A DNA stretch of 60,606 nt from a virus, in IMG/VR virus record IMGVR_UViG_3300020473_000031, positions 1-60,606 of that record; one strand, given 5' to 3'. Of this stretch, positions 7,575 to 51,372 are shown piece by piece (position 1 is the first letter of the stretch; the number at the start of each line of letters is the position of its first letter). Under the pieces are notes generated by a model, which was given only the letters and a program-made list of their open reading frames with translations, was not told the origin of the DNA and did not search any database. The position numbers and the translations under genes are program-made.

Positions 7575-7579
7575 GTCAT

Positions 7580-7606: not shown

Positions 7607-7608
7607 AA

Positions 7609-17008: not shown

Positions 17009-20000
17009 TTACGAACGGAGTTGTGCAGAATACTCAATTCTACTGAGTCTATAAGTAGCACCACCGTTACCCATTATATCTTCTCCACCCATAACTACTT
17101 GAGCAGCTGCTCCACTTCCAGTAGAATCACCAACTGCATTAACGAAAGTTACTGTTGGGTGTGTATTATATGTATTGTCAACAGATTGCACAATTCCATA
17201 ACCACCATTGACAATAGTACATGAAGCAACTTGGTCTTGTGCAGATGTTAAATTAACAGTTGCTGTACATTGTATATCACCAACATTCTCAACTGTTACT
17301 GTTGGAACTGCTGTATAGTTAGTACCTGGACTTTGAATTATAAAATCAACCACGGTACTATCATGTGAAAACTCATACAAGTATCCACCTATACCTACAT
17401 TAACATTACCAGTATTAAACGGAGTTATATCCTGAACTATAAGTACAGAATTAACTGGATCCCAAGAAACTACAGTTGCTCTAACACCAGAAACAGATCC
17501 AGTAACAATTTCGTTAACACCAAAATTCAATCCATTAGAAAGATTAGGATCTAAGAATAATTTTATAAGTGCAGTATGTGGAACACCATCAGTTAAAGTA
17601 CCTGCATCACTAACTGTAGCATACTTAAATGGCAAACTACCATCTTTAACCTGATCACCAACTTGGAATAGGGTTGTATTTTGACCACCTTGGGTTTCTT
17701 CAATACCATACAATGAAGTATGGATACCACCATCAAGATTTATTTGATTTTCATAATCAGTTCCTGCATTAACAAGATCTATAATTCCATCTCCAGCACC
17801 ATCTAATTCATCGTTGTCTTCAAATTCTTTATCTATTATTTGAGATATTGGTTCTGTTAAAGCTATAATAAATGCACCTTCAGATGAATCTACATCTAAA
17901 AGAACATGAGGATTAAATCCACCTGGAGCAGATGCTGCAAGACCAGCATCAAATTGAACAATAGCATCTTCAGTTGATGGTATTCCAGCATCAATAAATG
18001 CCAATTCATCAACTTCAAATGTTACTAATAATTCTCTAGTTGTTGGATCCCAGTCATATACCTTTGCAACCTTATTACCTTCATTTTCAATTTTTCTAAT
18101 AACTCTATCATTAACATTAAACTTATAAGTTGAATTACCCTCACCATCAATCTGTCCAGCATCAAGAACAATTCTCTGGTCAAAATTAAAATTAACTCCT
18201 CTAGTTAAACCAGAGAATTTACCTTTAGATTTAGCAGTATATGCAATGGTTTCTTTGTTAAGAATTAATTCACCAGAACCAGGGAAAGCATCAGTAGAAT
18301 CAACATACAATTCAGTATCAGATTTTAATACATCCTTAACAAGACCAGTGAGGAAACCAGCAACAGAATTGTATGCCTGTCTTGCTCTTGACTTACGTTT
18401 TAAGTTAACTAATTTTGTGAATATTACTTTAGGTTGATCAATATATCCGCTACCTGGATCTGTAATTTCAATATCAGTAATAACACCTTGAGCAACTTTT
18501 GCTATAGCTTTAGCACCAATACCTCCACCACCATTAATAAGAATATAAGGAGGTTCTTGATAATATTCACCTTCATCTACAATATTAATATTAGTAACTC
18601 TACCAAGTACATCAATTTCAGCAGCACCTTGAGCACCTTGTCCTCCACCACCTTCAAAGATAAGTGTTGGTGGTGTAGCATAATCTCTTCCACCTTGTAA
18701 TAGTGATAAACCTGTAACTGTCTGTACAGTAGGTGTTCCTGTAGCACCAGTACCCTCTCCACCTAATATTCTTGCAGTTGCTGCACCAAAATAATTATCA
18801 CCTTTTTTGGTCATCTTAACATAACTGACAGTACCATCAGTATTCAATACAACATCTCCTGCTGCACCATCTGGGAATGTATCTGGTTGAGCAGGGACAA
18901 TATCACCCTCAAACAATGGAGTACCATACATTGTTGGTCCAATTGCATAAGGATAAGTTGGAACACCACTACCGTTTTCTGTTAAGAAATAAGCATAAGT
19001 TCCATTAGGATACTCAGGAGTAACAGCAAATTTACCATTATGTTCATCCAAAGTACCAACACTAGTATCCCAAATATAATCTTGAACTAAATCTCCAATT
19101 ACATATCCATCTTGAACTGTTCTTATACCAATACCAGAAGTTGTATAACCAAAGGTATACAAAGCAAGAGGTGCAGTTACAGGTACTTCAAATCTTATCT
19201 CTCTTGCAGTAGCAGTATTAAACCCACTAATATAAGCACTATAAGTTACTTCGGATCCTTCTAACCAATAGGTAATACCTGGTCCTTCAAAAAGATATGT
19301 TGTATCTGGTGGAGTACCAGCATGCCATCCATCATCAGTAGTAGATATTAATAACTGTTCATTATCATTACTAGAATCATTCTGTTGGAATACATATGTT
19401 TTTCCTCTCCATAAACTTAAGAAAGGAACAGTGCTACCATCGATATTAAACTCACCATTAGCAACTGTTACAGCATAAGTTATAGTTTCTGCAGTAACTA
19501 CATCGGGTCTAGCACCAGCTAATTCATCACCTACTCTATATCTAAATCCAGTAACTTCTCTAGCAACGGTATTAGTACTATCATATCCATAAGGTCCGTA
19601 AATAGGATATCCATCAAATGCCATTCCTAATATCTTAGAATGACCATCAGCATGCCGTGAATAATCTATAGTAGAAGGATCAGATTCATTACTCTGATAA
19701 TAGTCTGTAATATAATAATCATTAGGTAAAGGATCATCATCTATTTCTAGATCCAAAGTCATATATCCTTCATGACCTTCATACCCAGACATATATCTGT
19801 GATACTTACAGTAATAATATATTCTACTATTTTCATCACCATTCATTATGAATAAAGGTTTAAACTCATTTTCATAATCTGTAGATGGTGCTTCTGTTAT
19901 TCCTGTACTCTTATAATATAAACTACCACCATTTAACAACCCATCCTGTGTGGTACTAAACTGCATAGGATGTCCATGAGGATGATGATCAGACGGTTGA

Positions 20001-21511
20001 TTAGTTGAATCGGATTGATTCCAAATAATTAAATAATTTCTCTGTACCTTAATATTTTCTGGTGCAAAATAATATTGTCCCTCAACAAAAGGACCAAACT
20101 CTGTAGAATCTGGACCAAACTCAATATAAAAAATACCGTTAGTTAACGTTGTTGGTGGTTCTAATATTTTAAAACTAAACCCAGTAGATCCTAAAACAAC
20201 ATTATTCTCAGCAAACACATCAGACCCACTTATATTTCTAACATAGATGTGGGTTATAGTTCCTAAATTATTTCTTACAATCTTTGCAATTTCTGCTTTA
20301 GCAGTAGTAGCTATAGCATCTATAGTTCTACCTCTCTCAACTACACCTAAAGTTTCATCAACATTACCAACTTCAAACATCAAGTTATCAAATTCTGTTT
20401 TAATGTTCCAAGTAAAAGGTCTAATCTTACCCCAATCAAACACACCATTATGTTCAGCAAACTCAGAAATCAATCTAGATGATTGATAGTAATAAGTATT
20501 ACCATCTACTACTGCATCAGAAGAAGTGTTACTTTTAATATGTGAATGTTTAACTGCATCAATTGAAAATCCAGGAGTAGGATTTCCAGCTTGACCCCAT
20601 TCTGGAGTATGAAGTTGAACTCCATTTGCCATTATACCTAATGACTTATTAAGTTGCTCTTGTCTAGCATCAGGATGAGGAGCATCTTTACCACCCCTAA
20701 AAATATAAGTTTGATCAAATGAACGATCTACTAATGATCCACCACTACTAACTGCACCAAAAGTAGCAGACTTAAAGGTATGAGCACTAGTATTAGTTGC
20801 AGGAGCAACACCCAATACTTGTACGGTAATAGTTGTAGATGTTGTAGAAAGAATTGGTATAGCAACACCTGCTACTGGATCAGTTGCACGAGGATATGTA
20901 TGATCAGTACCATGATCATCTAAAGCACAAGTAAACGTTAATGAATCTGTTGCAATCTTAATACTATCACCTGTAGTATAACTATGACTACCAATGGTCA
21001 TTTCCATTAAACCAGTAGTAGGGTTGTAGTTAATTGCTGAAGGTGTATACTGAGCAAGAGTACCACCAGATCCACCACCAGGAGCTCTTTCTGCTAAAAG
21101 GGGTGTTGGTTTTGGATGATTATCACTTTGTATTCTTAATCTATCACTATTAGAAGTGAATAATCCAGTTGTAGGTGAATTGGGATGTGACTGCCATATC
21201 CTATTAATATCAAAAGATTGTATGACAGTTGGTGTATCTTGTGTTGGTATTATTTGCAATCTAAGAGGATCATATCCAAGACCTCTTTCTAAAACTCTAA
21301 CATGAACTATCCTTCCAGATAACTCATCAATAATTGGATATAGAAGTGCTTCCTGTGTCGGAGTACCACAACCAGTAACAGTTAATCTTGGAGGATTGGT
21401 TATATCATAACCTTCACCACCATCAACTACTTGTATTGCACGAACACCAAATTTTTCATCAAATATGGGTTCAATTACAGCACCGTATCCAGGAACAGTT
21501 CTTGTTGACAT
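17009..21511 (-). CDS. Virion protein with cupredoxin-like and YHYH domains
   Basis: A 1500-residue modular protein. In order: N-terminal GxGY-type repeats (about 1-110); one copy of the 'LTFTC...YPRATDP' repeat (about 165-240, Tyr at about 206); a cupredoxin-like domain (about 480-600) whose apparent type-1 copper ligands are H514, C568, H571 and M574 in 'YYYCKYHRYMSG'; a YHYH-type core ('GMAFDGYPIYGPYGYD', about 628-643); a second cupredoxin-like segment without the Cys-His-Met loop (about 674-797); the second half of the YHYH domain (about 809-864); then more GxGY repeats and a C-terminal structural region. It starts 6 bases after the 408-residue gene. It is probably a baseplate-associated or fibre protein. 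Copper binding is a prediction from the residue pattern. Confidence 0.75.
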   Translation of the reverse strand: MSTRTVPGYGAVIEPIFDEKFGVRAIQVVDGGEGYDITNPPRLTVTGCGTPTQEALLYPIIDELSGRIVHVRVLERGLGYDPLRLQIIPTQDTPTVIQSFDINRIWQSHPNSPTTGLFTSNSDRLRIQSDNHPKPTPLLAERAPGGGSGGTLAQYTPSAINYNPTTGLMEMTIGSHSYTTGDSIKIATDSLTFTCALDDHGTDHTYPRATDPVAGVAIPILSTTSTTITVQVLGVAPATNTSAHTFKSATFGAVSSGGSLVDRSFDQTYIFRGGKDAPHPDARQEQLNKSLGIMANGVQLHTPEWGQAGNPTPGFSIDAVKHSHIKSNTSSDAVVDGNTYYYQSSRLISEFAEHNGVFDWGKIRPFTWNIKTEFDNLMFEVGNVDETLGVVERGRTIDAIATTAKAEIAKIVRNNLGTITHIYVRNISGSDVFAENNVVLGSTGFSFKILEPPTTLTNGIFYIEFGPDSTEFGPFVEGQYYFAPENIKVQRNYLIIWNQSDSTNQPSDHHPHGHPMQFSTTQDGLLNGGSLYYKSTGITEAPSTDYENEFKPLFIMNGDENSRIYYYCKYHRYMSGYEGHEGYMTLDLEIDDDPLPNDYYITDYYQSNESDPSTIDYSRHADGHSKILGMAFDGYPIYGPYGYDSTNTVAREVTGFRYRVGDELAGARPDVVTAETITYAVTVANGEFNIDGSTVPFLSLWRGKTYVFQQNDSSNDNEQLLISTTDDGWHAGTPPDTTYLFEGPGITYWLEGSEVTYSAYISGFNTATAREIRFEVPVTAPLALYTFGYTTSGIGIRTVQDGYVIGDLVQDYIWDTSVGTLDEHNGKFAVTPEYPNGTYAYFLTENGSGVPTYPYAIGPTMYGTPLFEGDIVPAQPDTFPDGAAGDVVLNTDGTVSYVKMTKKGDNYFGAATARILGGEGTGATGTPTVQTVTGLSLLQGGRDYATPPTLIFEGGGGQGAQGAAEIDVLGRVTNINIVDEGEYYQEPPYILINGGGGIGAKAIAKVAQGVITDIEITDPGSGYIDQPKVIFTKLVNLKRKSRARQAYNSVAGFLTGLVKDVLKSDTELYVDSTDAFPGSGELILNKETIAYTAKSKGKFSGLTRGVNFNFDQRIVLDAGQIDGEGNSTYKFNVNDRVIRKIENEGNKVAKVYDWDPTTRELLVTFEVDELAFIDAGIPSTEDAIVQFDAGLAASAPGGFNPHVLLDVDSSEGAFIIALTEPISQIIDKEFEDNDELDGAGDGIIDLVNAGTDYENQINLDGGIHTSLYGIEETQGGQNTTLFQVGDQVKDGSLPFKYATVSDAGTLTDGVPHTALIKLFLDPNLSNGLNFGVNEIVTGSVSGVRATVVSWDPVNSVLIVQDITPFNTGNVNVGIGGYLYEFSHDSTVVDFIIQSPGTNYTAVPTVTVENVGDIQCTATVNLTSAQDQVASCTIVNGGYGIVQSVDNTYNTHPTVTFVNAVGDSTGSGAAAQVVMGGEDIMGNGGATYRLSRIEYSAQLRS

Positions 21512-22763: not shown

Positions 22764-22771
22764 TTATTTAT
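22764..22771 (-). promoter_or_regulatory. Putative late promoter (ATAAATAA) before the 408-residue gene
   Basis: ATAAATAA on the minus strand, about 20 bases upstream of the 408-residue ATG, overlapping the stop codon of the giant gene. It is the only motif of this type between the giant gene and its downstream neighbours. Confidence 0.6.
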
Positions 22772-25700
22772 GGTGTTTCAGGGTCTACCTCTTCTTCACC
22801 GTATAGGCTAAGATCAGGTGCGTTCCAATCAAGAGGAACAGTTGTTTCAACTTCAACTTTTGGATCCTTATATCCAGATCCAGCATTATTCATTTCAACA
22901 CCTGCAACCCCGATCAATGCTCTGATGTTTCCATCAAATCCAGATATAGAATCGATTCTAACATTCGGTCTGGTTGTATATCCAGAACCACCAGATGTTA
23001 CCTGAACATCATTGATGAATCCTGCAGTCAGAATAGCAGTTGCCTTAGCATCTTGTCCGAATACAGATCCAAGATAGTCGAAGGTGATTAAGGAGTTTGA
23101 TGATTCAATAACAGCAACTTCTCTGTCTGATGTCTCACCTTGGATGTCAATAAAGTCACCAGGTTCGATAGGTGGTACAACTTCAGCAGCATCAACGTCT
23201 GCCTCAGAACCAACGTAGGAGAAGGCAACGAATGTTGATCCTACACGAGGAATTTCAGAGAAGATAATTCTAGAACCAACGATCTCGAAACCTACACCTG
23301 GTTCCTGTATAACACCATTCAGAGAAACGATGATGTTATTTTCTGGACGTATAGTTGAAGATTGAACACCCTCAGTTAGAGTTAGTGAGTAGAATACATC
23401 ATTACGCTTGAGGTTAAATGACTGACGTAAGGAGTCGAACTCGAATGAAATATCATCCAACTGTCTCAACTTACCTACGTAGAATCCTGTGAAGGATGCA
23501 CCTAGTTCTGGTGGTTCTGTGAATTGAATCTGATTAGAGAACGCTGTATATGCGTTAGTACCACCTGGAGGTTGTAGAATACCATTGATGTATACAAGAA
23601 GATGTCCTTCTGGATCTGGGAGGTAATTAACACCATTATCAATCGTTAGATTAAATGTATCTTGAACACCATCAAATCCCTTAAACGCTCTCTTAACACG
23701 TGCTTTAAGATCAACTTTATTTTGAACTGCTGCCCTATAGTCTCCAGGTCCAATAACAGAATCCTTAAGGTCAAATGATCCTGTAATATCACTTAAATAT
23801 AATCTCTTGAACTGACCATCTGGACGTATATCCTGTACTAATGCAGCACCAGCACCAGGAGTATTAACTCTGGTAATTACCGATGCATAACCTACAGGGA
23901 AGTTACCACCAAGACCATAATCACCTACGAGATCACCATTTGTAATTTGATCTCCTACGAAATCAGCGATATAAAGGAAGTTGTTATCTATATCAACCTC
24001 AGTAATAATTGCATAGTTATTTTGATCAGCAACACCACCAATAACTTTATAAAGTCTATTACCAACAGTAAATGAACTTAAATCACTAATAATAGAAATA
24101 CCAATTCTTACGTATCCATTTGATGCTATTCTGTCACCAACACCTATATCTAAACCATTATATTTACTTACATTAATAAATTGTCTAGAAGTTTCTGGAT
24201 AAACAACAGAAGTTTTTTCAAATGAACCAACAAGAGTTTCAGTATCAACTGTTAGAGTACCACCAGTATTATCAAGAATAGCAGCTTCGTTTCTAAGGAA
24301 GTCAGTAGGTGTAGCAGAAGCACCACTTGTATATCCTTTAAACGGTACAGTTGCGTCAAATTCACCATCAAGATCAATAATCTGTATACGATCCTCTATC
24401 AAACTAACCTGTGCTGTTGTGTTATTTGTAGAACCAACAATATAATCAGTGATAGCCCAAGGATTACCAGTAACTTCAATGTCTAAGTAACTAAAGTTCT
24501 CATCCTCATGAACTCCGTATATAATACCAGTAACTGATGGATCACCATTCTTAGAAACAGTTTCGTTCATGACCCAAGGACCATCAACTACATCACCATC
24601 AAAACGTAATCTCTGATAGATCTTAACAATCTCACCCTTATTAGGAATAAGAGTTTCTAATTCAGCATAACTGTCACTAGCAGTACCATATAGATAATCT
24701 GATGATTTTAATCCACCACCCAATCCAACTGGTAATTCTCTATTACCATATGTGTAGGTAGGAATTGTAATTCCATTGTTAACTGTAACAGTAGTATAAT
24801 GAGTATCAATTGCTAATTGCTCACTAATCAAATTAAGATTATCACGTACAACTCTACTTACAGATCTAATATCATAATATCCAGCAGCATCAGCAGAGAA
24901 GAATTTCAAATATCCAGCCTCAGGAGATGGACTTGTAAGACCATCAGTCATTGCCTGAATAATATATTGTTCTAATTTATCTAATGCATATCTCTTAATA
25001 TTAAACTCACCATCAGCATAGAATATTCCACCACTAGCAGAAGTATATGGATCTAATGTACCCTTAGAAAGTTTTGCACCCCAAGCATAAACACCTTTAG
25101 TTCCATCACCACTGTATGATAACTGATTATTTTCATTTGATACGTTAATTCTAGCCTTAAGTTCTGTGAATCCAAATGAGAATGTTGTTGTAACATATGC
25201 TCTATACCAACCGCCACCATAAGGAACAGCACCATAAGCATCACCTGATATACCACCTTGAGGTATAAACAGAGTACCTGTATTACCAGTATTCATATTA
25301 AGATCAAAGAATACACTTTGTTCTCCAGCAGTTCCATCATCAAGTATGATATGGAATCTTATTTGCTCATATTCTGCCTTCTTAAAGAAGCATGAGAATG
25401 TATATTGCTGATCATCACCACCAGTTCCTGATCCACCTTCATCAAAGCTATTTGTAGTATCATCAAATGTAATATTACCATCATCCCATGTATCATATGC
25501 AGTTAAGTCGTATATTCTATCAACGGTATGCTCACCACCAGCACTAGAAGAAATTAATTTAGAAGCAGTAGTACTGTTATCTGGTGCTTCTGTAAAGTTA
25601 TCACTAAATCCAACTCCAGTACCTGTCCAATTAGGTACGAACAATTCTGGATTAGTAAATAAGTTAATACCAGAAACTTGACCAGTTATATTTGATGTAA

Positions 25701-28700
25701 TATTTCTAGCAAAAGCTATTGTCCTTACATTACCTGGTGAATTGAACCAAGTGTAACTACTACCAACACCATTTACAGAAACAGTTGCTAATGCATTAGA
25801 TTTTGTTCCAGTTAATGAAGTATTAGATATCCAAGGAGTTCCTACAAATTCACCAACAACTAAGAATTTAGTGTCTGAATTATATTCTAGAACCTTAGCA
25901 GATCCCTTGTCAGAAGTAATTAATTCACCAACTTCAAATCTTCCAATAACACTTTCAATTGTTATATTATGAGCAATAGAAGAATCACTGATATCTGTAG
26001 TTAACAAATCATGACTCATATTAGTGATAATACTATCAACCCAATCATTATATTGCCAAGTATTAAGACCAAACTGTGCATTAACTAGAGTTGTAATTTC
26101 TTCCTTATAATATCCTCTATTATAAATGAGGTTCTTAGCAGCACCCCTCATAGGTCTCTTACCTGGAACAATGAGATTAATTGCAGTATTAACTAATTCT
26201 TTAATCCTAGTTCCAACTACTGTCATATCAGTAGGTGTTTCACTATCAGTATATGGATCGTCAAATGAATGTACATAAGCATAAAGAGGATCAACTGATG
26301 AACCACCTTTAATTCTTAACTCACCTTTAACAGCATGCTCACATAAGAATCCTAATTGCTCTATAGCATAAACTGTTGCTAGAAGCTCATCTTCAACATT
26401 AATGATTTGCATCTGAGAAGACAAATAGTATTCCATTGCAGCAACGGTACTATTATTACCACCAGTCTGTAAGTCAGATATTATACCCAATATAATAAGT
26501 TTCAAATCTCTCTGACATGTACTTTCTCCACCTGGTTCTGGATAAGAGAAAGCAAACTGTTGAGAAGTATCCAACATGTAAGTAAACTCTGCTCTTGTTA
26601 AACCAGTAATTTCAGATGAAATACCATCTCTATTAAAGTAAAGTCTATCAGCAGCAATTGCAAAATCAGCATTTGTAGGAGCAATAATATCATTTGCAAT
26701 AGTTACTAAGTTATCAATAGCATCAGTAACGTTTGCACAATCTCCAGGAGCAGTTACACAATCGGTAACAGCACTCTGGAATGTATGTAATGTTGTGTTA
26801 GAAGAAGTTCCAACATTAACAGTAATTGTAGTTGCTGTTATATCAATAATTTCAATATTCTGTAGATATACAGGGTCTGTAGTTCTAGGATATGTGTGAT
26901 CACTACCATTACTATCTTCAAGACAACGGAATGTTAATCCATCAGTTGCAATTCTTATCTTTCTACCTTTAACTAAAGTATGAGAACCAATAGTTAACTC
27001 TAATTCACCTGTTGTTGGCTCATAAGTTGCTCCAGTTGGAGTAAATGATTGAGAATTAGATTGTGTGATTCCCCAAGCACCAACAATGATCTTATCAGTA
27101 TTACCTGTTGTTAGATCACCATTAACTGCTTGCTTCATATAGAATGCAAGACGCTCATGGGCATAAGCAGACTGGAATACTTGTAATCGAATATGTAGTA
27201 GAATATCATTAGTACCAAGATATCTCTTAGCAACATTTACAGTATTAAAATTACCACCATCTCTAAGATCTTTAATAAACTCTTGAAGAATTAACGCTAG
27301 GTCAGTCTTACACTGTAATGTACCAGCACCACTTCCATCAAAGTTTCTAGGCATATCCAAAGCAAGATCTGGATAACGCTCTAACATATCATTAGATGCT
27401 TTATCAACAATAGGACCAGCATTTAACTGAACTAAATTAGCAGCATCTATAAATCTATACTTACCTGCAGCACCAATCTGATTAGTAAACATGATATCTT
27501 CTGTACCATCATGCCAATTAATTGGGAACTCTTCTTCATAGTAAGAGTATATTCTACCACCAAGGAATTCGTGTGGAGGTGAATACTTAACAAGACTACC
27601 AAGATAATCAAGAGGTGGATTCTGTATTGCAGCATCTAATGTATCTGTAACAATACTAATTAAGTTCTCTATAGTTGTTTGTACATCAGTACAATCAGAT
27701 GTGTTGTAATTAAGAATCTTAATTCCATTTGCAGTTGTTTGTGCAAAATTGTGTATTGTTAATTGATGCTTAACTGATCCAGGATCACAAGATACAAATG
27801 TATGTGATGCTTGTGGAGTGTATGAAACAGTATTAGAACCTTGGTTACCTACAAATGTATGTGTGTAATCACCACCAGTAGAAATAACTGCTCTAGTAAT
27901 ACAATTAGCAATTGTAGAATGATATGTATGTGCAGTTATATTGGTAGAAGGAGTTACATCTAATACCTGTATATCAAATGTATTAGTTTGTACATTTGAA
28001 ATTGGAATATACTTACCACTGATAGGATCAGTAGAGCGTGGATATGCATGAGTTGTTGCATAATTATCATGAGCACAAGTAAATTTCAATCCACCATCAG
28101 CAATCTTAATATGCTCACCATTAACAAATCCATGATCGGCAACGGTTATAGTAATTACACCAGTAGTAGGATTATATGATGCAGTAGAAGGTGTATATGT
28201 ATTATTTGCATTCTGGAATACATGAGTTGTTGTATTACTTGAAGTTCCTACATCAAGTGTAACAGTTGTAGGAGTTACAGCAGTAATATTAACTGCTGTA
28301 TTCCATGCAGGATCGTTACCAGATGCACCATTTTGACCATTTGCACGAGGATAAGAATGATCAGAACTTTGACCATCTTGATCGCAACGGAATATAAGTG
28401 AATTATTAGCAATTCTAACTGCTGTACCAGCAGTTAAACTATGGTTACCAATAGTAACAGTAAGAAGTCCAGTTCCAGGAACAAATGATGCATCAGTTAC
28501 ATCATATCCCTTAATAGGAGATTTACCAACATTAACTGTAATTACACCACTCTGTCTTCTAAGACCTTTAGTAGAAGCCTTTTGGAATACGTGTGTTGTG
28601 GTATCAGATGAAGTACCAACATTAATTTCAAATGTATCATTAGTCTTATTGGAAATTGGTAACCATCTACCACTAGCATAATCTGTAGATCTTGGATATA

Positions 28701-31700
28701 CATGATCAGTACTATTACCATCAAGCAAACATCTCAATGTCAATGATTCATCAACAATCTGAACATAATCCCCATTAGAATATCCGTGTGCAGGTACGGT
28801 TAGAACCATCAAACCAGAACCAGGAGTATACACTGCATTGGTTATTGTTGCGTGTGTATGACCTACATGAGTAATTGGAATAGACTTATTATCTCCATAT
28901 GGATCTGTTGAACGAGGATAATCCTTATTAGAACCATTACCATCCATTCCACATGTGAATCTTAAACTACCATTTGCAATAGTAACGTTTGCACCAACTC
29001 TCATACCATGCTGACCAATTGTTAAAGTCATCTCACCAGTCTTAGCATCATAAGATGCATCAGAAGGTGTAAATGTTTGGTCTGCTTGTGCAACACCTAC
29101 ATTAAGACTAATTGTATTAACTGTGGTTCCAAGAATCTTAAGTTTCTTTCTTGCTGCACGAACATCATGTCCTGGACGTGGATAAGACTTAGTAGTCTGA
29201 TTGTTATCCATTGCACAAGTAAATTTAATAGAATTATCTTCTAATGTCACATAATCATCTTGAGTTAATGGATGTCCCTCAATAGTTAATATTAATATAC
29301 CAGTAGAAGGATCGTATGTAGCAAAGGAAGGTGAATATGCAGTATAATTTCTATTATCACCAAAAGTAGTACTACCAACATTTACAGTAAATGTATCAGC
29401 AGTGTAATGAGTAATAGGTAATGCAGACTTGTATGCTGGATCTGTTGTACGAGGATATGGATGAGTAGTTTCAGCACCATCCATATCACAAGTAAACTTA
29501 AGTGCATCAGGTAAAATTTCTATTGCCTGGCCTTGCTTATAGATTCCATTAATAGTTGCAGATTTAAATGTATGGTTATAAACACCACCTGTCATAAGCA
29601 CCGCCCTATGAACACCACCTGTAGATGCAGATACAAATGTATGAGCATCAGTATTGGTAGAAGGTGTAGAATCTAATACCTGAATAGTAAATGTATCAGT
29701 CGTTACATTACCGATAGGTACATACTTACCGCTAATTGGATCAGATGATCTAGGATATGATTTGTCTGTTGCACTACCACCGAAACTACAATTAAAGACT
29801 ATGGAATTATCATCCATCATAATATGATCACCAGCTTCAAATCCATGATTAGGAATTGTAAGGGTCATTACACCTGTAGTTGGGTTGTAAGCACCATTAG
29901 TTACTGTATAAGCACTAGGAGAAACAAACTCATGTCTGTATATACCACCAGCAATAACAGCATTCTTTCTAGCACTAGCAAATGTATGAGTGTGATTTCC
30001 ACCAGTTCTCAAAATACCTCTAGTGATACTATTAGAAACAGCAGATACAAATGAATGTGTATCAGTGTTTGTGGAAGGTGCTACATCTAATACTTGTACA
30101 TCAAATGAATTAGTTTGTACATTAGAAACAGATAACCATCTACCACTAGCAGGGTCAGATGATCTTGGATAATCCTTCTCTGCAGCAGTACCAGATGCAC
30201 CACCAAATGCACAACTTAACTTAATAGCACCGTCATCAATCATAACTTGCTCACCATTTGCCATATTATGATCATTAACAGTGATAGTCATGACACCTGT
30301 AGTTGGGTTGTAAGCAGCATTAGTAGGTGTTAACTTAGTTGCAGCAACATAATTATGAGTAGTTGTATCAGTCGATATACCAACATTCAAATTAATGACA
30401 CCAGTTTGACTATGAAGACTACTATCTAAAGCAGATACAAATGTATGTGTCGATAAATCACTAGACTTACCAATATAAACATCGAATGAATCTGCTAAAA
30501 CATTACTTAATGGTAACCACTCATCGAATGATGGATCAGTTCTTCTTGGATATGAATGCTCACTAGCACCATTATCCTTACCACATGTAAATGTTAATGC
30601 GTTTTCAGCAAGTTTGATGCATGAATTTGCTTTGGTTAATCCATTAGCAACAGCAGATACAAAAGCATGTGTAGTTGTATGTGAAATTGCTGCTGGACCA
30701 AACATGTTACCAACATTAACTTCAAAGAAGTTTGTACTTACATTGAATATTGGTAACCATCTATTACTTGCGAAATCAGATGCTCTAGGATAATCATGAT
30801 TACTTGCATTACTATCCTTATCACATGTAAATCTTAAAGATCCATCAGCAAGTTTAACTCTATCTCCGTCTTGGAAACCATGACCAGCAACAGTAAGTTT
30901 CATTACACCAGTAGTAGGTGTAAATGTTGCAGCAGTTACTGTGTGGTTAGTTGATAATGCAAATCCATGATTTACTAACTCGATGTTCATAACACCAGTA
31001 GCAGGAGTATATGTTGCTAAAGTTGGTGTATGTGCATTAGTTCCAACTGATGTAATAGGAACTGGTTTGTTATATGCATAGTCAGCACCACCAGGAGCAT
31101 TAGAACCTGATGCTCTAGGATATTTCTTCTCAGTAGTATTTCCATCACCATTAAAGTCGCATGTAAAGGTCATAGACTCTTCACCAATCATTACGGTTTC
31201 ATTTGTTCTGTATACTCCATTAGTAGAAGCAGTTACAAATGTATGGTTATAATCACCACCAGAAATTACTGCGTCTTGAGATGTACCACCAGTCCAATTA
31301 TGGGCAGTTACATCAGATGAAGTACCAACATTAAATGTTATTGTTGTTGCACTCTTAGCAGTAATTACTACAGGAGTTCTCCATGCAGGGTCAGCAACAC
31401 CAGCATTCTGTATAAATCCTGTTTCTCTAGGATATAATTTAGAAATTGTATCTCCATCAAGACCACAACTAAATGAGAAACCATAATCCTTAAGCATTAT
31501 TGGCTCACCAACTTCAAGAGTATGGGATCCGATAGTTGCTTCAATAAGACCAGTAGCAGGATCATATGTTGCAGTTGTTACATCGTGTTTTACGAGAGGT
31601 GAAGAACCAACATTAACTTTAAATGTATCAGTTGTTATTCCTACAACTGGCAACCACTTATTGAATGATGGGTCTGTAGATCTTGGATATTGCTTATTAG

Positions 31701-34700
31701 TTGCATTACCATTCATTGTACATGTGAATGTAATGCTATTTTCTGCAAACTTAATGTAATCACCAACAGAGAATCCATGATTAGCAACAGTAACAGTCAT
31801 AATACCTGTTGTTGCCTCATATGATGCAGTTTCTGCTGTATACTGAGATCCACCACGAAGGTAATGATTTCCAATACTCATTGCCATAGAACCAGTACCA
31901 GGGTTATATGTCACTGATGATGGGTTATGTGAAACAGTAGGTGACTTACCAACATTAACTGTAATATAACCAGTTTGTACTTTTAAACCACCACCAGTTG
32001 CAGTTTGATATACATGTGTTGATGTGTCAGAAGACTTACCAACATTAAGAACAATAGTATTAGAATCTGGTGCAGATGTAATAGGAATCCATTGCTGATG
32101 AACAGGGTCACTTACTCTTGGATATGTGTGATCAGTTGCCTGTGCATCTTTATCACATCTAAATGTAATTGAATTATCATCAAACTTAACTGAATCTTTT
32201 GCTCTCTTTACGCAACTTGAAGTAGCAGAAATAAATCTATGGTCACTTAAATCTTGTGATTTACCAATATTAACTGTAAATCTATCTATATGTACATTCT
32301 GTACAGACAACCACTTCAAACTAGAAGGATCAGTTGATCTAGGATATGTGTGTTGCGATCCATGATTATCCTTACCACAAGTAAAGGTTAGGCAATCGTC
32401 ATCAAGTAGAACTCTATCACCATTATCAAAACTATGACCAACAATAGTTAACTCTAATTCACCAGTAGCAGGGTTATAAACTGCATCAGTTGGTGTATGT
32501 GTTGTAGCAGGATTAAGATTATGTCCAGTAACAGTTAGACTCATCTGTCCTGAAGTTGGTGTATAAACTGCTCCAGTTATAGTCTTACTTGTCTCACCAA
32601 CATTAGTAATATTGAGTGCATGCTTACGAGATGGATCAGTCAATCTAGGATAACTATGAGATGTTGCATTACCATCCATAGAACATGTAAATGATAATCC
32701 ATTATCCGCAATTTGTATTGTTTGATTCTCTAAAAGGTTATGTATTCCAACATTAAGAACCATATCACCAGTAAGAGGATCATATGTAGCACCAGCAACA
32801 TCATATCCAACTCTAGGTGACTTACCAACATCAAATGTTATACTTCCATCTCTCTTAGTAATTCCATTTGTATAAGCTGATTTGAATATATGTGATGAAG
32901 TATCAGGAGAAATTCCAACATTAACATCAAATGTATTAGCACCTACATTAGATACTGCTAACCACCTTCCATTATAAGGATCTGTTGATCTTGGATATGA
33001 ATGCTCAGTTTCTTGATTATCTAACTGACATCTAAATGTTAATGAATTAGTAGCAAGTTTAATTCTATCCCCATTAAGAAGTCCATGCTTATTAGCAACA
33101 ACACCATTAGTAAGAGCACTATGGAAGATATGTTCATAATCACCACCAGTGTGTATACAACCAGTAGTAGCACCAACCCAAGTGTGGGTATCAGTGTTAG
33201 TTGAAGGAACATTCTCTAGAATCTTAACAGTAATAGCATTAGTAGTAGCTGATTCAATCTTTACTGCAGTATCATAGAATGGGTCTGTAGATCTTGGGTA
33301 AGACTTCTTAGCAGCATCGCCACTAGCACCACCAAATCCACAACTAAAGGTTAATGATTCTTTTGCAATCTTAATACTTGTACCAGCAGTTAATCCATGA
33401 GGAGTTGCAAATTCCAACGTCATCATACCTGTTGTTGGATTGTAGATACCATTATTAGGTGTTAATTGTACTTTAGGTGAAATACCAACATTAACCGAGA
33501 ATGAATGTGTTTGAACATTAGTAATAGATAACTGAAGTCCTCTCTTAGGATCAGTTGTTCTAGGATAAGCATGAGTACTATAGTGATCATCCATAGCACA
33601 TGTAAATGTTATAGCACCATCTTCTAATCTTATAGTATCACCAGCTTGCATTCCATGATCAGGAATGGTTAAATTCATCATTCCATTAACAGCATTATAT
33701 GTTGCATCAAGAGGAGTAAATGTCTTACCAGCAGTAATCTTCATTACACCTGTTGTAGGTGTATAGTTAGCAAATGATGCACTTAGTTGCTCACCATCAT
33801 ATGCAATTGGAGTAGGCTTACCTGCAATTGGATCTGTAGTTCTAGGATACTTCTTAACAGCTTGCAATCCATCACTTGTACATCTGAAGTAAATTGAATT
33901 AGGTGCAATCTTAACGTTAGTTCCTGGAGTTAATATATTATCACCTATCTGTAACTTCATATGACCAGTAGATGCATCATAAGATCCACCAGTAGGATTG
34001 AAGACTAATAAAGGTGATTTACCAACATCAAGATCAAAACTATTTGTTTGTGAATTAGAAACAGTTAACCAACCAGCAAGTGCTGGATCTGATGCTCTTG
34101 GATACTTATGCTCAGTCTTATGACCATCCATATCACAAGTAAAGGTTAATGACTCTTTCTCAAGCATTACCTTGTCACCATTCTGGAATAAGTGACTTGC
34201 AGATGTTACAGAAAGAATTCCAGTTTCAGCATTATATGTTGTACCATTTTGTACTGTTATTGCTCTTCTACCAACTAATCCATGACCTACCTCAGTAAGT
34301 GTTAAATTTCCAGTATCTGCATCATAAGTTGCACCAGTAGGTGTCTTATAAGTAAATGACGTTGTAGAAGAATCAGTAATAGTTGTATCAGTGTATTGCT
34401 TTAATCCATGATCACCAACTGGTTTCCACTCACTATTAGTAACAATAAACTCTAACATTTGATCGAGTTTATTATAAGCCCAAATAGTTTCTCTAACTTC
34501 TGTTTCTATATTAAGTAGTTTTACATTTGCTGTATCAGCTCTATCAATATAGTATGAAACGGCAAGCCAAGTCTTATTGTTACCACCATTACGCATATCT
34601 GCTACGATAGATCTACAGATATCTTTAACATCATCCTCACAATTAACATCCCCACCAATAACAGTAAAGTTAGGGAACTTTTGATTAATCATGTATACAA

Positions 34701-37700
34701 CTTCTTTCGCAATAAATTCTAAGTTCTTAAGAATTAATTGTCCAGCATTATTGTATCTGTGGCTATTCTTAACAAATCCTTGTTGAATTGCTACACCAAC
34801 ATTAACTGTAATTGTAGTAGCAGTTACTGCAGTAATTGCAATTGCAGTATCATATACAGGGTCAGTTATACGTGGATAAGTATGCTGAGTAGCATTATTA
34901 TCCATTTCACAAGTAAATGTTAATGAATTAGGAGCAATCTTAACAGTATTTGATGTTGTGTAACTATGAGATCCTATAGTTAATACTAAATCTCCTGTTA
35001 AACCATTGTAAGTAGCATCAGTTACATCTTTTTCAATTATACCTTGTTGAATGATAACAGCACCACTTACAGTACCACCAGTATAGGTATGCTTACCAAT
35101 ATAACGTCTAGAAGCTACAATAGGATCATTATTAAAGTATTCCTTATTACTAAATGATTCTCCACCAGACCAATCATCAACAAACTGATCTCCATCAGAA
35201 CTATCAAAGTGTAATAATACCTTAGTATCAACATCACCTTGATGAATACCTGCAGGAGGAGTAAATGCAGCAGTATATCTTGCTACATCAGAAATTCTAA
35301 ACTCATCAATATATCCAGCAAATGAATTAGTTGCTGCATAACTAGATCCAATTCTAATTGGTCTAGCAACATATGTACTACTGTCTGTACCAGATCCTAC
35401 TTCAACTCCATCAAGGAATAATTTAACCGTTGTTCCAGATCTACTTACAGCAATATGATACCAAGTATTATTAGTTGGAATTACAGTAGCACCAGAAGTT
35501 ACAATATCAGAACCATTAACATTGTAACGAATCTGAGCACCATTTAAATAAATTCTACCAGAGATTTCAGGATCAGATGTTCTAGTATCATAAATTTCAG
35601 CAAGACCTGCTAATGCAGCAGTATCTGGTCTGCACCAAAATTCAATAGTATATTCACCTGTACCAAAAGCCATCTCACTTGTAGATGCAACACTAATATA
35701 ATCTCCAGAACCATCTAATTGAAGTGAAGTATCACCAAACTTCTTCTGTGTAGAAGAAATTTTAGCATCATTTGTAAAGTCAAACTCGAAATAATCTTCA
35801 CCATTTGACTTACTTCTACCTATTTTACCTAAGTAAACAATTCCTCTTGCTTGATTATATCCAATAACTTCTGCTTTAGTATCACGAGTTCTAATTATTT
35901 GACCTGCATTAAAGAATCCTTCACCCTCTTTATCATACATTGATATCTTTCTAACTCTACCAGCTTCACCAGCAGTAAATTCTCCAGTATTATTACCATA
36001 TTCTATCTTGTAATTTCTAATATCTTCACCAATTTGTAATGTTCCTACTGCATTAGAGTAAGGAATGATATAGTTACTAACTATCTCATTTGATGGGAAG
36101 TTAGTGTTGTATGCAGTTTCATTATCAGTGAAATCAACAATACTAATCTGAGACTTAGAAATATCATCTATAACTACGTTTGGATAAGATGTAGATGTAA
36201 TTCTGTTGAATAGTAGTCCAAAGAATGAAGATCCAGGAGAAATATCAACCTGACCAATAAACTCTCCAGTAACAGGATCTTGATACACACTAGCAGTTGT
36301 AACTCTAGATACAGTACCAGATTTAGCACCAATAATAACATCATTCAATTGAATATTATAAAGACCTGGTGTAGACTGATATGTACCAGCAGTCTTACTT
36401 AATGTAAGAGCCTCAGTAACGTTAATATCAGTACTATACATTGGAGAACCCTCTTGTTGGGCAGTTGCCTGAGTTCCTAACGTACCCCTAACTACAGTTA
36501 ATGTTGTGGAATCAAATCCATCAACAACTGAGAGTACTTCCATAATTTCAGCACCGATTCTAAATCCATCATTAACTGCCACATCTATGGTTCCAGCAGG
36601 AAGTGGTCCAGTACCATCAACAGGAACTACTTCAAATTCAGTAGTAGAAGGTCCAATAGCATAACGTAAATCACAAACTGGAGATTCAGCACCAGTTTCT
36701 AAGTTAATTTGTTCAACTTTAGCAGTATCACCTTGAAGATTAGTAACTGTTTCTCCGTAAATATACAATCCAATATTAGAAACAGCTGTAATATCAACTA
36801 GATTACCAGAGAATCCAGTTGCAGAAACAGTACATAATTCACCAGGAATGAATGTACCTTCATCCATATATCCACTGATAATAGTACCAGTAACTGAAGT
36901 TACAATCAATCTAGCTTGTGAGCTAGTACCAACAAGACTATTACCAATAAGAGGGTAAATACCACTTTGGTTATTCCATGTTAAATCCCATGTTTGAATT
37001 TGACTAATAGTAAGATTAGCATATTTAACACTAGCAGGTGGTGAAGGTGGTTCAGAGAATACTATAGAATCACCTTGTATTTGGAATGATGTATTTGGAT
37101 TTTGTACAATACCGTTAAGAACGATCATTAACTGGTTTGCATTAGCAACTACAGTTCCACCCTCAACTGTTAATGGGAATGCAATTCTTTCACCATCAAA
37201 TAAGTGATCAATATTATCAACACGTTGAACAACAGAAGTTAGAATATTCTCAGAAGATGTCAATCTCTTTTGACGGAATAAAACTTCAGTATTATTAAAT
37301 TCTGAATAAATTGGCTCAACTAGAGCAAAACTTTGAATATTAGGAACAACTGCTTCTTGAGCAAGTTCAACTGATTTAGTTAACTGGAAGAATGTCTCCT
37401 TATTAGGAATTTGACCATATTCATTTAAGTTTAACTCACCAAACACCTTAAACGATGCAGGGTGAACATTTCTGATTAGAATTTCTTTCCACTCACTAAT
37501 AGAAACAGCAGACTTAACAGCATAAGAGAAGTCCTGATAGTAGTAAGAGTCTTGAATCTTCTGAATGATTTCAGATGGCTTACCAACATCATCAATAAAT
37601 TGACCAGTAGTTTTAGTAATAGAACCAATATCTAAGACACCACGAGCAACTTTAAGATCACTAATAATACCAGAAGACTTAGAAATAACACCAGTTATTC

Positions 37701-40700
37701 TTTCACTCTCTGCAAACACACCATCATGATCAACAATCTTAAGGATTCTAGGTCCAACTTGCCAACCAGAGTTTGTAGAAACATATCCAGTTGCAGTAGC
37801 AACTTCTAAAGATTCTCCTTGATAAACCAATTCACCTTCTAAGAAAGTAGATGTAATAACATTAGCTTCAGCAGCACCACCGAAAGATTCGGTTAATACA
37901 CTCTGACGACCTTCACCAGCATTAACAAATGTAAGTGCGTCACCAAGTTCTGCGTTAGCTTCAGTAATAGCAATTTTTAATTGATCATCTTCTAGTGAAT
38001 TTGCTGAACCAGAAATAGCATAGTAAGTAGTAACTCCATTAAGACGACCAGTAGCACCAGCAGATAGTGGGAAATCAGCTCCATCTCCAGTATCAGTCAC
38101 TGCCAATGAAAGTTCAGCACCATTAGGTATTCCATGAGGATATGCAAATTGTAATAAACCTAAGTCTAAGTTAACAACATAGTTGAAAGAAGATCTTAAA
38201 CTAACTTGTGGTGTAGAAGAATATCCAGCACCAGGATCTTTAACAACAATGTTATCCAATCTACCATTCTTAATAGATGCTTCTGCTTGAGCACCAAATC
38301 CACCACCACCTTGAATTATTACAGTAGGTGCTAATGAATATCCAGAACCTGGATTCGTAACGGTAATACTTTCAAGAATACTTGTAGAAGTTAACTGAGC
38401 ATTTATTGGGAATGTAATCTCAGGACGTAAAGTATAGTCATGAGGATAATCATAACCAAAGTTATTGTTCTTAAGTTTCTTAATCTTACCAACTTTATCA
38501 CCTTTAGTGAAAATAGATGCTTCAGTACCAAAAGGAGGAATAACAACAGTTAATTCTGCACCAGATCCTTGTAATCCAGGTCCAAGAATACCATCAATTG
38601 ATTCAATATCAATATAAGCAGTGGTATATGCTTTACCTGGAGAAGTAACAACTACTTCTTGTATCTGACCTGGAATTGTAATACCATCTTCATCCGATCC
38701 ATCATTAACTAAAATACTAACTAAACCACCTTCACCATCACCTAATATAGGAACAGAATTATAAACACCAACAGCATATTCAGTACCTGGTTCATTAATT
38801 TGAACTCTTTCTATATTTCTTGTTGATTGTATATCTGTAACAATAGGTAATTTGGTATAGAATCCACCAGGATTAACTATACGAACATCTGCGATAGATC
38901 CAACTGCTTTTAGAGAACTTGTACTGTAAGATGCCTGATTTACATTTGCATTTCCTTCGGGTTCATTAGCAAGAAGGAATTTGAATACATCTGCACCTTC
39001 GGTAATAGTTGCACCAGCAGTACTTGAAATTACAAAATTACCCTTATAAGGAGAATCTGTAACATCAAGATAACTACCTGCAATCACAGGAGAATTATCT
39101 CCAGTTCTAGAAGGATCGAAATAATATGAAATATTAGTAACAATATCTGGATCAATTTTTAACTTAACTGTAGGTGTAGGTTGTCCTTGACCAGTTACAC
39201 CTGGAATACCAATTCTTTCAATAGAGTTGAATGAATATTCCAACTTATAAAGATTATCCTTAGAGAATGATAAGTTACCACCAACCATTGAAGAGTGACT
39301 TAGGTCAAACAAATATTGATGACCATTGTACATCTTTAAGACAGGAGATTTAACAAATATATTAACATTAGCTGCTATTGTAGAAGGAGAAGTTACAGCA
39401 GCTTGATTTAACTTATATGTAAATTCTAACGGGCTAATAACACTATCAACTGGGAAAGCACCATCATATTCATCATAGGTAGTTCCACCAGATTCTTGTG
39501 CTGGATTACCATCAACATATATCATTTCGCCATTACTTAAGTAATGACTTGTAGAGGTAATACAGTATACTTCATCTGTATTAGAAACAGAACTAACTTG
39601 AAGAATCTTTGTTAAATTAGCAGTTAAAGTGATCTTAAGAACACCTGCCAAATTGGTAATCTGACATGTACTATAAGAAGTATTAAATGTTATATCACTA
39701 GAAGTAATATCAATAACAGATCCAGGAATATATGTGGATCCACCTGAAACTTCATCTATTCTAATTGAATAGTCATTTACATCAAATTCCTTTAATTTTG
39801 CAAAATCATCTAAATTATTAGTTCCCCCAACATCAGAAGGTGCATCAAAAGTAGAAAGATCTATATCAAATGTTCCTGGAGTTGTGTTATTAATCTCAGT
39901 AAACACATAATTCTTAACTTCATTAACATCATTTGGAAGAGGACCAATAATACCATAACTATCTTGCTCACTGAATTGTTGTGTAATTAATTCACCATTA
40001 TCCAAATCATCAGTCCAAGGATTGTGAATAATAGCAAGATATATTTTATTAGCAGAATTATCCTTTTTAATAATATAACCACTATTAATAAACGTACCGT
40101 TAGGATTTTGAAGTACTAATTTAGCACCAACTGTAAAATCAAATGACTGATTTATAGTAAGTTCTTGTATGTTATTAATAACAACTGTGGATGTAGGTTT
40201 AATATAGTACCTATCATTAACAACAGCAGATACCTTTAATTTTTGAGATCCTGGAGAAGGAACAGTTGAAGTTCTAGCACTCCAAATATCAGCAACATAA
40301 GTTAATGCCTCTGTATCCTGAGACATAGTTGTTGTAGCATCATCAAAGTCTAATGATTGGAAACCTGCTTCTGCTAATTCAAAACCAGTACTACCAATAC
40401 TTAAAGTAGTTCCAGTAACAGGAGCAATATCTGCTCTTGCAAATCCAATCTGTGTATTTGTTTGTAGTCCTTGATCACCTAAACGATCCGAATCAGCATT
40501 TTTATCAATTTTTAAACCAAAACCAATATAATCTTCAGATTCATATCTTCTTGTTTGAGCATCAAACCAAGCAGTATCTGTCCAAGAATAACCAAAACCA
40601 AACTGAGATGCTTGTGGAAGTCCATTTATATCAGCTGGTGAAGTAGGAGTTATTGCTCTATTCTTTAATTTAACATCATCAAGATAGAATTGACCTTGTG

Positions 40701-43700
40701 TATCTTTATCAAAGTCATTAATACCAGCACCAAATCCAGGTCCAACACCAAAGTATAGATCCTTACCAGCAAATGATGTGTTTGATATAGTTCCACTAGC
40801 TACTTGAATACCATTAACAAATGACGAGAATAAATTCCCAGACTTAGTTATTGCTACAGAAATCCAAGTATTATTAAGCATTACAGAAGAAGCACTTGAA
40901 ATAGCGGTAGCATTAACAATTTGAGTTGAACTATTAGCAATTGTTAAATCTAAACCACGACCTGTACCAAATCCCAACCAAAGACCACCAGTAGGATCCT
41001 GAGAACTACCAATCTGACATAAAGTCATTAAATTTTGACTTAAACTAAATGGAAGACCAGAATCTCCATCGATGTATACCATCATCTGAATGGTAAAGTC
41101 TCCATCCAATGTAGTACCCAATTCAGAAGAAGATGCTTTAATATGACCATTTTCCCAAGTAGTTTGAGTATTAGCTGGTACATTACATCCATCAATCTTT
41201 GCTACACCACTCACATAACGTATAGAATTATTAGCACTTTGATCTGTAATAGTGTAATGAGAAGCAAGATCAGTAAGAGGAGATCCACCATCATCAAAAT
41301 CTAAAATAAACTCATTTCTATTCCATTGAGTTTGACCGTAAATGTATACATCACCAGATACATCTACAGCAAGTGCTTTTGCAGTAATACCTTCAACTTG
41401 ATTCTGATTAAACTCATTTGTACTATGCTTCTTCATAGTACCATCATAACCAATCTTAACAGTTCCTACAGTTGTTTTTCTAGTAACTTGATCATCTTTT
41501 GTATATGCAACATTAAGATCACCAAATATATCAATAATAGAATTATCAACCAGAGTTAATTCTCTACCAGTAGCAAGATAACGATAATTCCAAATTATAT
41601 TACCATCAGTATTTAATTTACCTACCCAGAAACTATCTCTAGTAGTATCATCAGACTTAAGTCTGCAAGTTGCAGTAATATAAAATTCATTAAATTCATC
41701 TATTGTTAAACTAGTGTTTATGAAAGAATAAACTGTATTACTTAATTCTTTTATCCAATCTATTGTTATTGCATTAATACCAATCGTTGCTTTACCAAAA
41801 GCTACATTAATATCCTTAGAATCTGGAGCAGAGGCAGTTTCCATAATGAAATAGACACTATCCTCAATGATTATCATATCCGTCATTCTTTCGGATAAAG
41901 TTCCAGATGCAATCTTTCTCTTAACAGCAAAATTACCTGTAGTGTCAATAGATGCTATAAAGGCATCATCAGGGTTTAATGAGTTTGTATTTGTATAACC
42001 ACCAATAACATAACGAATATCAGAGTATTTCTCAAGACAAGTAACATAATCTGCACGATTAGCACCAGATATACCAGCATATCCCTTTTGGAAATCTAGA
42101 GTAGCATCTAATCCATCTTCGGATTGAGTATACTTACATAGAATAATATCTGGATTATAAACATTTAAAAGGTTTGCATTTGGTCTATTATTACCTACAA
42201 CCCATATTTCATCATTAGTAAATGGATTTTTATTGACATATAACTTTTGGAATTCTGTATAATATTGACCATCTGTACTTTCTAATGTTCTTTCCCATTC
42301 TTTAACACCTAAAGCAGAATGCTTAGATATAAATGCAACTGTATTTCCAGTAGCATCTTTTGTTTTACCACAATAGTATGTCTCTTTTTCTTCATTAACA
42401 TAGACATCATTAACAGAAACATAATTATTATTTGATATCGTTGTTACAAAATAATCTGCTTTTTTGAAAATCTGTGGATGACTTAATATAACACGAGGAC
42501 TTGTTGTGTAATCTGATCCAGAATTAATAATATTAACAGTATCAATAGATCCTACAGAACTAACTACTGCTTCTAACTTACCAGCAGTACCATCTCCATC
42601 AATAATAATTGTTGGTGGAATCTCTTCATCATATCCAGAACCAGATTGTTCAATTACAATAGACTCAATACCTTTAATCTGACGAACAACAAAAGTTTTG
42701 TTCGTATTTTGCATTATAGGAGTATAATCTACAAATACTTCATCACCAGTAACTAAATTATGAGGAACATTAGTATCTAAAACACCATAATTCAATCCAT
42801 TAACATTCTCAAAACTATAAGAATCTATAGCTTCACCCTTAATTCTAGAAATACGAGCAGAAACACCAGCTCCATCAGTACCTTCATTATCAAATGTAAG
42901 TATATCATCAACCTGATAGTTCTTACCTGGGTTTTCAATAGTAAATCCAGTTACTGAAGCATCTTCAAACTTAGTTATAGTTTCAACTTCAATATCAACT
43001 TTAGAGTCAAACTTAACTTTAGGGAAGTAATCAAAGAGTTGTAATGGTGACTCCTCAAACATTTGAGCAGGATCTGCGGTTTCATCAGGAGTAATAACAC
43101 CATCACGGTTAACATCTTCCACCTCAAACATCAAAATATCACCATCTTCAGTTGTTAATGCAGCAGTAGAAGCATTTGGTGTTCTTTCAACATCAATATC
43201 AACATTTTCATAAGGATCTCTATATCTTACAACACCAGAAGGTATATTTTGCTGTACAGCACTAGTTGAAAGATTCCAAGTATCAACAACAGAGTTATAA
43301 CTTGGTCCAATAACATATGGGAATAAAGCATTACCATCTTCTGTAGCATCAATAGTTACAAAATAGCAATACCTACCATCTGGATAATCTGGAGTCTTAC
43401 AAAAACGACCATTATATTGATCCAAATCACCTAATCCAAAGACATATTCATAATCTTCAACAAATTTACCTGCAGGATACAAATAATCTCCACTTGTATC
43501 TACATCTGTAAGAAGAGGTCCATCACTTCTAACAGGATATGGATTAGTAGTTGCATCAAATACAAGACTTTCTTGCAATCTATATGAAGTGCTAAGTCTA
43601 ATTACAGCAGATCCTTGGTCAGTTGGATCAGTATATCCATAAGGACCGTAAATTGGATTACCATCAAATGCCCAACCAATAATAGGAGAGTGTGCTAACT

Positions 43701-50667: not shown

Positions 50668-50675
50668 TTATTTAT
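50668..50675 (-). promoter_or_regulatory. Putative late promoter (ATAAATAA) of the structural operon
   Basis: ATAAATAA on the minus strand, about 25 bases before the 74-residue ATG, overlapping the stop codon of the oxygenase gene upstream. A GACGTATACCGTC near-palindrome (50651-50663) lies in the leader. This motif probably starts the transcript that covers gp25, gp6 and the giant gene. Confidence 0.6.
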
Positions 50676-51370: not shown

Positions 51371-51372
51371 AA

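Follow-up and report, generated by a model that had tools for sequence, protein, structure and literature searches.

A repeat array in a giant gp7-position protein

The DNA analyzed here (the window) is virus record IMGVR_UViG_3300020473_000031 over its whole length of 60,606 bases, a fragment of a T4-like marine cyanophage. It contains, in this order, a gp25-like gene, a gp6-like gene, an open reading frame (ORF) of 8,397 residues (22768..47961, minus strand), a gp9-like gene, a 1,500-residue baseplate wedge ORF (phrog_708; 17009..21511, minus strand) and gp8, and the same order is found in P-SSM4 and P-RSM4. The second half of the giant ORF carries an array of 23 copies of a repeat unit marked by a TFTC and a YPR motif, and a 24th copy lies in the 1,500-residue ORF.

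Residues 1 to 1000 of the giant ORF have matches in 477 of 50,697 phage records. The protein matches the "gp7: baseplate wedge initiator" of P-SSM4 at 72% over 999 residues, and four consecutive pieces of it score 5242, 2188, 1297 and 1602 bits against the phrog_701 profile, which thus covers most of the protein. T4 gp7 follows gp6 as the giant ORF does and has one 40-residue segment in common with it (residues 683-722, 45796..45915, minus strand, against T4 gp7 residues 714-758; BLASTP E-value of 5e-5 in a single comparison), a region where PF23786 (Baseplate_wedge) gives a sub-threshold match (residues 683-729). T4 gp7 differs in its size of 1,032 residues, in the absence of the unit and in the presence of Gp7_5th, Gp7_6th and Gp7_helical, Pfam domains missing from the hits of the giant ORF at E-values of up to 10. 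Because of the gene order and the similarity to P-SSM4, the giant ORF is, on sequence grounds, the cyanophage gp7, the positional counterpart of T4 gp7, and we use this name hereafter. The gp7 proteins of Kyanoviridae (P-SSM4, P-RSM4, S-SM1, S-SSM5 and Syn19; T4-GC397, 643 and 969) occupy the same gene position and are 67-74% identical to it over long stretches of the first 4,100 residues. The unit is present in each of the six orthologues examined whose ORF is complete, in 1 to 11 copies (11 in P-SSM4; 18 in P-RSM6) versus 23 in the window. In the available part of the source, these proteins are split over several gene clusters, of which GC969 is called Synechococcus enriched (PMC3037559). 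A PDB search with gp7 residues 1 to 1000, the array and the 1,500-residue ORF gave no relative at the limits used except SAKe6DEref (E-value of 0.075).

We made a search profile from the 24 YPR stretches, and the unit positions given here rest on its matches. The profile recovered 23 full units in gp7 and one in the 1,500-residue ORF, all at independent E-values no higher than 6.5e-21, which bears out the count of the initial annotation, together with three additional half-unit matches (residues 4536-4572, 5335-5372 and 5642-5667). The unit-bearing stretch of gp7 spans residues 4306-7064 (26770..35046), just downstream of a LamG domain (Laminin_G_3; residues 4083-4228, 35278..35715; Pfam E-value of 3.2e-23); these features and all units lie on the minus strand. 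Unit 1 (YPR at residue 4362; 34744..35046) is an upstream outlier and unit 23 (7024; 26770..27072) a downstream one. The 21 clustered units begin with unit 2 (4620; 34006..34284) and continue with units 3 (4705; 33748..34005), 4 (4799; 33472..33744), 5 (4888; 33169..33480), 6 (4989; 32875..33180), 7 (5104; 32551..32835) and 8 (5206; 32224..32529). Unit 9 (5280; 31996..32247) has an HxF.SA-type stretch in place of the first hairpin, unit 10 (5425; 31594..31851) follows it, and the loop after YPR is longer in units 11 (5510; 31291..31602), 12 (5614; 30997..31284) and 21 (6537; 28207..28536). Between the last two lie units 13 (5724; 30652..30975), 14 (5804; 30430..30702), 15 (5931; 30040..30363), 16 (6069; 29626..29937), 17 (6169; 29326..29610), 18 (6260; 29083..29361), 19 (6348; 28837..29088) and 20 (6422; 28576..28863), and the cluster ends with unit 22 (6640; 27913..28218). 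The 24th unit, residues 152-250 of the 1,500-residue ORF (20762..21058), lies outside the phrog_708 match of that ORF, the best stretch of which begins at residue 252.

Five residues, namely Cys, Tyr, Pro, Arg and one Asp, are identical in 24 of 24 units, the Asp being placed at 90% or more instead of 100% by a MAFFT alignment. A wider set of 638 distinct profile matches, drawn from the window and 55 loci, keeps Cys in 626/626 of the rows that cover its column, Tyr and Pro in 622/622, Arg in 620/623 and Asp in 606/609, with the caveat that the profile itself favors the five residues and that many of the rows come from close relatives. This second test weighs more than the first because the 24 units were originally picked by YPR. 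The single conserved Cys and the YPR triad noted by the initial annotation are thus near-invariant, and two of its other descriptions need revision. The regular period of about 303 bases is a mean only: the 20 intervals between clustered units range from 74 to 145 residues (mean, 101; standard deviation, 19.7), and Tandem Repeats Finder reported no array at this stretch. The supposedly conserved VNVG end occurs exactly in 7 of the 23 gp7 units and is a minority ending. Pairwise identity among the 24 units runs from 19% to 59%, with a median of 35%.

A second, interspersed repeat, helix-like by eye and with a Cys and a D-x-x-x-GGN motif, occupies the space between the outlying units and the array (34372-34764, 27082-27804 and 25972-26769; gp7 residues about 4400-4530, 6720-6960 and 7065-7330). 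The first half of gp7 (38872-47961) contains a YHYH domain at residues 1387-1539, another LamG domain at residues 2271-2440 and numerous GGxGY..PP-type stretches.

Predicted fold and relatives of the unit

Unit 16, modeled as 29614-29937 with a 99-row alignment, was predicted as an all-beta fold of eight strands with a predicted local distance difference test score (pLDDT) of 93.6 and a predicted template modeling score (pTM) of 0.82, in line with the independent fold suspected earlier. In a VIA-align comparison, the best 39 rows were all phage endosialidases or E1 FCCH domains, with Z scores of 4.3 to 6.4 (5.9 to 6.4 for the PF12195 endosialidase barrels and 4.3 to 6.3 for PF16190, E1 FCCH), a range in which, by the tool's own warning for Z below 8, a match may mean merely a common arrangement; the next row was a V-ATPase (Z of 4.3). 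The endosialidase of K1F (1v0e) aligned at residues 424-503 with a Z of 6.2 and a root mean square deviation of 2.3 over 75 residues, and K1F residues 411-510 are its PF12195 domain.

Profile comparison pointed the same way. Aligning 99 units with six endosialidase barrels in hhalign gave a P value of 5.2e-5; the aligned part is the HG..GD motif, and its register agrees with that of the structure match. None of 300 column-shuffled controls reached the real score (best, 22.8 versus 30.4). The HG(L)xxGDxV motif of PF12195 is present in the units, and the unit and PF12195 (the K1F, phi92 and K1G tailspikes) may have a common fold besides an HG(L/F)xxGDxV motif in register. They differ in that PF12195 occurs as a single copy in a tailspike enzyme and has no TFTC/YPR hairpin in the six sequences aligned. 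PF16190 may have a fold like that predicted for the unit and is a single domain of a eukaryotic enzyme. A related domain in gp7 itself (residues 957-1023, 44893..45093, minus strand) contains the HG..GD part without the TFTC/YPR part and resembles the endosialidase beta-barrel; its orthologue alignment matched the six barrels with a probability of 82% over 55 columns (hhalign), and it is nearer to the endosialidase family than the unit is. The models and alignments together suggest that the unit is probably an endosialidase-type small beta-barrel, related to the endosialidase barrel, plus a TFTC-to-YPR hairpin.

Two results, besides the modest Z scores, weigh against this reading of the fold. 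Foldseek found nothing in the PDB at an E-value of 0.001 or better for the unit model, the endosialidase barrels staying above 0.1. No Pfam model reached its cutoff for the unit: PF12195 (End_beta_barrel) scored 15.2 bits against a gathering cutoff of 35 (best E-value of 0.02; 9 of 99 units) and PF16190 (E1_FCCH) 12.1 bits against 29.5 (best E-value of 0.002; 4 of 99 units). Among predicted viral structures, Foldseek gave 19 matches at E-values of 0.001 or lower; those with a name are tail, structural and baseplate proteins of cyanophages. A protein labeled endosialidase from Synechococcus virus S-PRM1 matched much more weakly (E-value of 0.025). A search of PDB sequences with the unit profile returned one repetitive iota-carbonic anhydrase (E-value of 2.9e-5), which we judged a chance match, as its single segments had E-values of 4.6 or worse.

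The statement that no described family is known for the unit therefore holds for Pfam at its cutoffs, and it does not hold for PHROG, as the unit already lies within the profiles phrog_701, phrog_5342, phrog_18802 and phrog_1276 and within the P-SSM4 protein annotated gp7. The labels of these profiles are virion structural protein, tail fiber protein and unknown function, and their listing names no repeat unit, fold or role.

The Cys had been considered a candidate metal or disulfide site. It is the only invariant Cys and lies in a predicted strand (46-50) in alternation with hydrophobic residues at 46 and 48, which makes a buried core position likelier; we infer that it is probably a core residue of the modeled barrel and serves neither role. 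In a model of three consecutive units, the junction at a spacing of 89 residues, where two units abut, had a pLDDT of 82 to 93, and the longer linker at 201-213 had one of about 33, with an overall pTM of 0.53. The chain may be pictured as beads, some joined tightly and others on flexible links.

Carriers and evolution of the array

The unit query had matches in 323 of the 50,697 phage records, and the name of every one of these reads Synechococcus, Prochlorococcus, cyanophage or marine virus. In viral contigs of the window's clade, the complete gp7 array numbers 23 units in all six loci (L004, L005, L006, L008, L010 and L016); other lineages have 19, 20, 22, 26, 29 or 32 unit matches in one ORF, and some loci are truncated at contig ends. 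Of 14 phage records read, 12 contain the unit, and T4 and K1F do not. The numbers can be small: the S-SM1 orthologue (6,180 residues) has two units, S-SSM5 two and S-RIM2 one, and S-PM2 has none in the three stretches covered (about 133 kilobases of its 186.7).

The array can also stand apart from gp7. The gp7 gene of S-SSM7 encodes 3,007 residues without a unit and matches parts of the first 3,510 residues of the window gp7, whereas a separate protein of 3,001 residues, following the gp9-like gene, has 12 units and matches gp7 from residue 4297 onward, including residues 8046-8296. Syn1 and P-HM1 have four and three units, respectively, in a "tail fiber protein." These phages carry units in separate proteins; hence, the array half behaves like a module, either joined to gp7 or free-standing. 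The ORFs corresponding to the 1,500-residue protein in P-SSM4, P-RSM4 and Syn19 are without a unit, and the 24th unit did not arise by recent copying from gp7, since its distance to the nearest gp7 unit in the tree is 1.03. The unit exists outside gp7-type proteins as well, being found near the start of a 2,224-residue ORF with a phrog_5838 match in three similar contigs (L053, L054 and L055). A Nol-like carbamoyltransferase lies close by in these contigs, and in L054 the single unit is followed by a stretch similar to the D-x-x-x-GGN repeat. A scan of genome contigs found the unit in large ORFs at two loci, in contigs of marine metagenome-assembled genomes labeled Dehalococcoidia and Euryarchaeota (L063 and L064), which are probably misbinned cyanophage DNA.

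Across seven gp7 orthologues, the number of units rises with protein length from 1 to 23, with a slope of 115 residues per unit and an r of 0.966; this fit leaves out P-SSM2 (10 units in 5,195 residues of a distant gp7, with which r falls to 0.76), Syn30 (truncated by the end of its record), S-SM1 and four phages with their units in other proteins, namely S-SSM7, Syn1, P-HM1 and S-WAM2. The gp7 of S-SSM5 can be aligned with residues 3-4289 and 6729-8395 of the window gp7; its residues 4612/4611 join window residues 4650/6729, so that the same array site holds one unit in S-SSM5 and 21 in the window. These comparisons support the view, by sequence, that gain or loss of whole units accounts for the differences in gp7 length, and the earlier proposal of a repeat domain that builds length agrees with it.

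Length that scales with unit number would equally be seen if the barrels were a passive spacer, merely setting the length and bending of an arm of which the tip or other domains bind. This main rival to the function proposed below is possible, if somewhat unlikely, in our judgment. It fits the median identity of 35% among units of one protein and the set of positions that they share, which comprises five invariant residues, in or close to a single predicted hairpin, and the core, the rest being variable. It fits less well with the LamG domain adjoining the units, with some position-specific loop residues kept across relatives, and with the lone unit in the 1,500-residue protein, which is hard to explain as a spacer.

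The units are old by their sequences and keep their place. For 20 of the 23 gp7 units, the nearest unit in L017 is the one of the same index, and in a tree of 258 units from 14 genomes, which excludes units below 45 bits or at contig ends and includes some closely related genomes, the nearest neighbor belongs to the same genome for just 16 units. We reject recent tandem duplication or homogenization on the latter count and the 35% median identity. A conserved unit order is what fixed contacts would require if the units packed on neighboring wedges or fibers and stabilized the large cyanophage baseplate instead of reaching the host, and the carriers are indeed wedge-position proteins. However, a range of 1 to 23 units among orthologues with alignable flanks is hard to fit to a fixed lattice, and the module is also found in proteins annotated as tail fibers, which leaves such assembly contacts a clearly unlikely role.

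Against close relatives, the array has a ratio of nonsynonymous to synonymous substitution rates (dN/dS) of about 0.2, compared with 0.15 to 0.25 in the two flanks; against distant ones, the values are 0.39 to 0.46 and 0.30 to 0.35, respectively. Between L013 and the window gp7, the identity is 51% in the array versus 67-68% in the flanks. Judged by these rates, the array is under constraint and diverges somewhat faster than its flanks. Between the window gp7 and those of L008 and L010, dS is about 0.22 in the array versus 0.36 to 0.55 in both flanks; because of this lower dS, the sequences suggest that the array moves between relatives by recombination. Such a mosaic pattern and the wide variation in copy number are what one would expect of a recombination by-product whose length has no selected role. 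We consider this highly improbable, given that the array is constrained against close relatives much like its flanks, that units match their same-index counterparts and that five residues are near-invariant over the 638 matches.

Elsewhere in the window, three ORFs that match 2OG-Fe(II) oxygenase profiles (50672-54106) are situated between an 800-residue wedge ORF and the gp25-like gene, and a 132-base repeat of 1.9 copies (2323-2568) lies in a 2,270-residue ORF that starts with an Mtd_N domain.

A putative arm at the baseplate edge

Why would a baseplate wedge protein carry such a chain? We hypothesize that the array is a variable-length arm of barrel modules that probably touches host surface glycans during adsorption, a reading to which we give about an even chance. 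Each unit would be a small all-beta barrel of the PF12195 or E1 FCCH type plus a hairpin bearing the invariant Cys and YPR; 23 of them would be chained, by tight or flexible junctions, in the second half of the gp7-position protein after the LamG domain, and the chain would form an arm of variable length at the baseplate edge. When the phage adsorbs, these arms would most likely extend to the envelope of the cyanobacterium, touching surface glycans weakly and at many points. Prediction or comparison supports the barrel fold, the chaining, the placement in a protein with an orthologue found in virions, changes in number by whole units and the occurrence of the module in fiber-like proteins; the protrusion of the chain as an arm, the contact with the host and the glycan ligand go beyond these and are our proposal.

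Three lines of evidence lead to a glycan-contacting arm: presence in the virion, the sialic acid binding of the solved phage barrel nearest to the unit model, and the LamG domain ahead of the array. T4-GC969, to which the S-SM1 orthologue belongs, was detected in purified virions according to the accessible part of PMC3037559; hence, the gp7-type protein is presumably in the particle. The barrel of the K1F endosialidase is described, in the portion of PMC12632334 available, as having a sialic acid site and a host discrimination hotspot. In addition, S-PM2 evolving with its host acquired nonsynonymous changes in S-PM2d081, as far as the accessible part of PMC9910659 goes; this protein occupies the gp7 position, matches parts of the N-terminal half of gp7 at about 30% and is without a unit.

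Other results speak against this reading. Many units are unnecessary for infecting Synechococcus, because S-RIM2 has one, S-SSM5 and S-SM1 have two and S-PM2 has none in the stretches read. The shape of an arm is not derivable from the three-unit model, with its pTM of only 0.53. To judge by E1 FCCH, which the unit model also resembles, sugar binding is not implied by the fold. Beyond the invariant hairpin, no shared surface patch is evident among the units, which agree in their five invariant residues and in part of the core and are closer to their positional counterparts in a related phage than to their neighbors; the repeated binding surface proposed in the initial annotation is thus not borne out.

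If the units do bind glycans, gp7 may be seen as a wedge protein fused to a fiber-like, tunable glycan-binding chain of endosialidase-type barrels whose length (1 to about 32 units in the carriers examined) suits the host envelope and is greater on Prochlorococcus, an extension that we regard as rather doubtful. Phages isolated on Prochlorococcus (n = 11) have a median of 9 unit matches versus 4 in those grouped with Synechococcus (n = 30; Mann-Whitney P = 0.013), but these are tblastn places among the matches listed for the 323 records, which undercount units, include near-identical phages and ignore kinship. Longer arrays in phages isolated on Prochlorococcus are a lead only.

No paper describing this repeat was found by title or abstract, in searches that did not cover supplements, most subscription papers or bioRxiv outside PMC. 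As far as these searches go, the module, its likely fold, the copy number series and the independent carriers are undescribed, and the protein is known under bare labels. Giants of the gp7 type are encoded by hundreds of deposited marine cyanophages, and their long half is labeled merely, for example, "virion structural protein." The unit links gene clusters that earlier work held separate. A defined domain with a predicted fold, an orthologue series of 1 to 23 copies, and one-unit and 21-unit alleles at one site make the role of the long half directly testable. Should host glycans prove to be their ligands, the units would amount to a large adhesion module, as yet without a name, in viruses that abound in the ocean.

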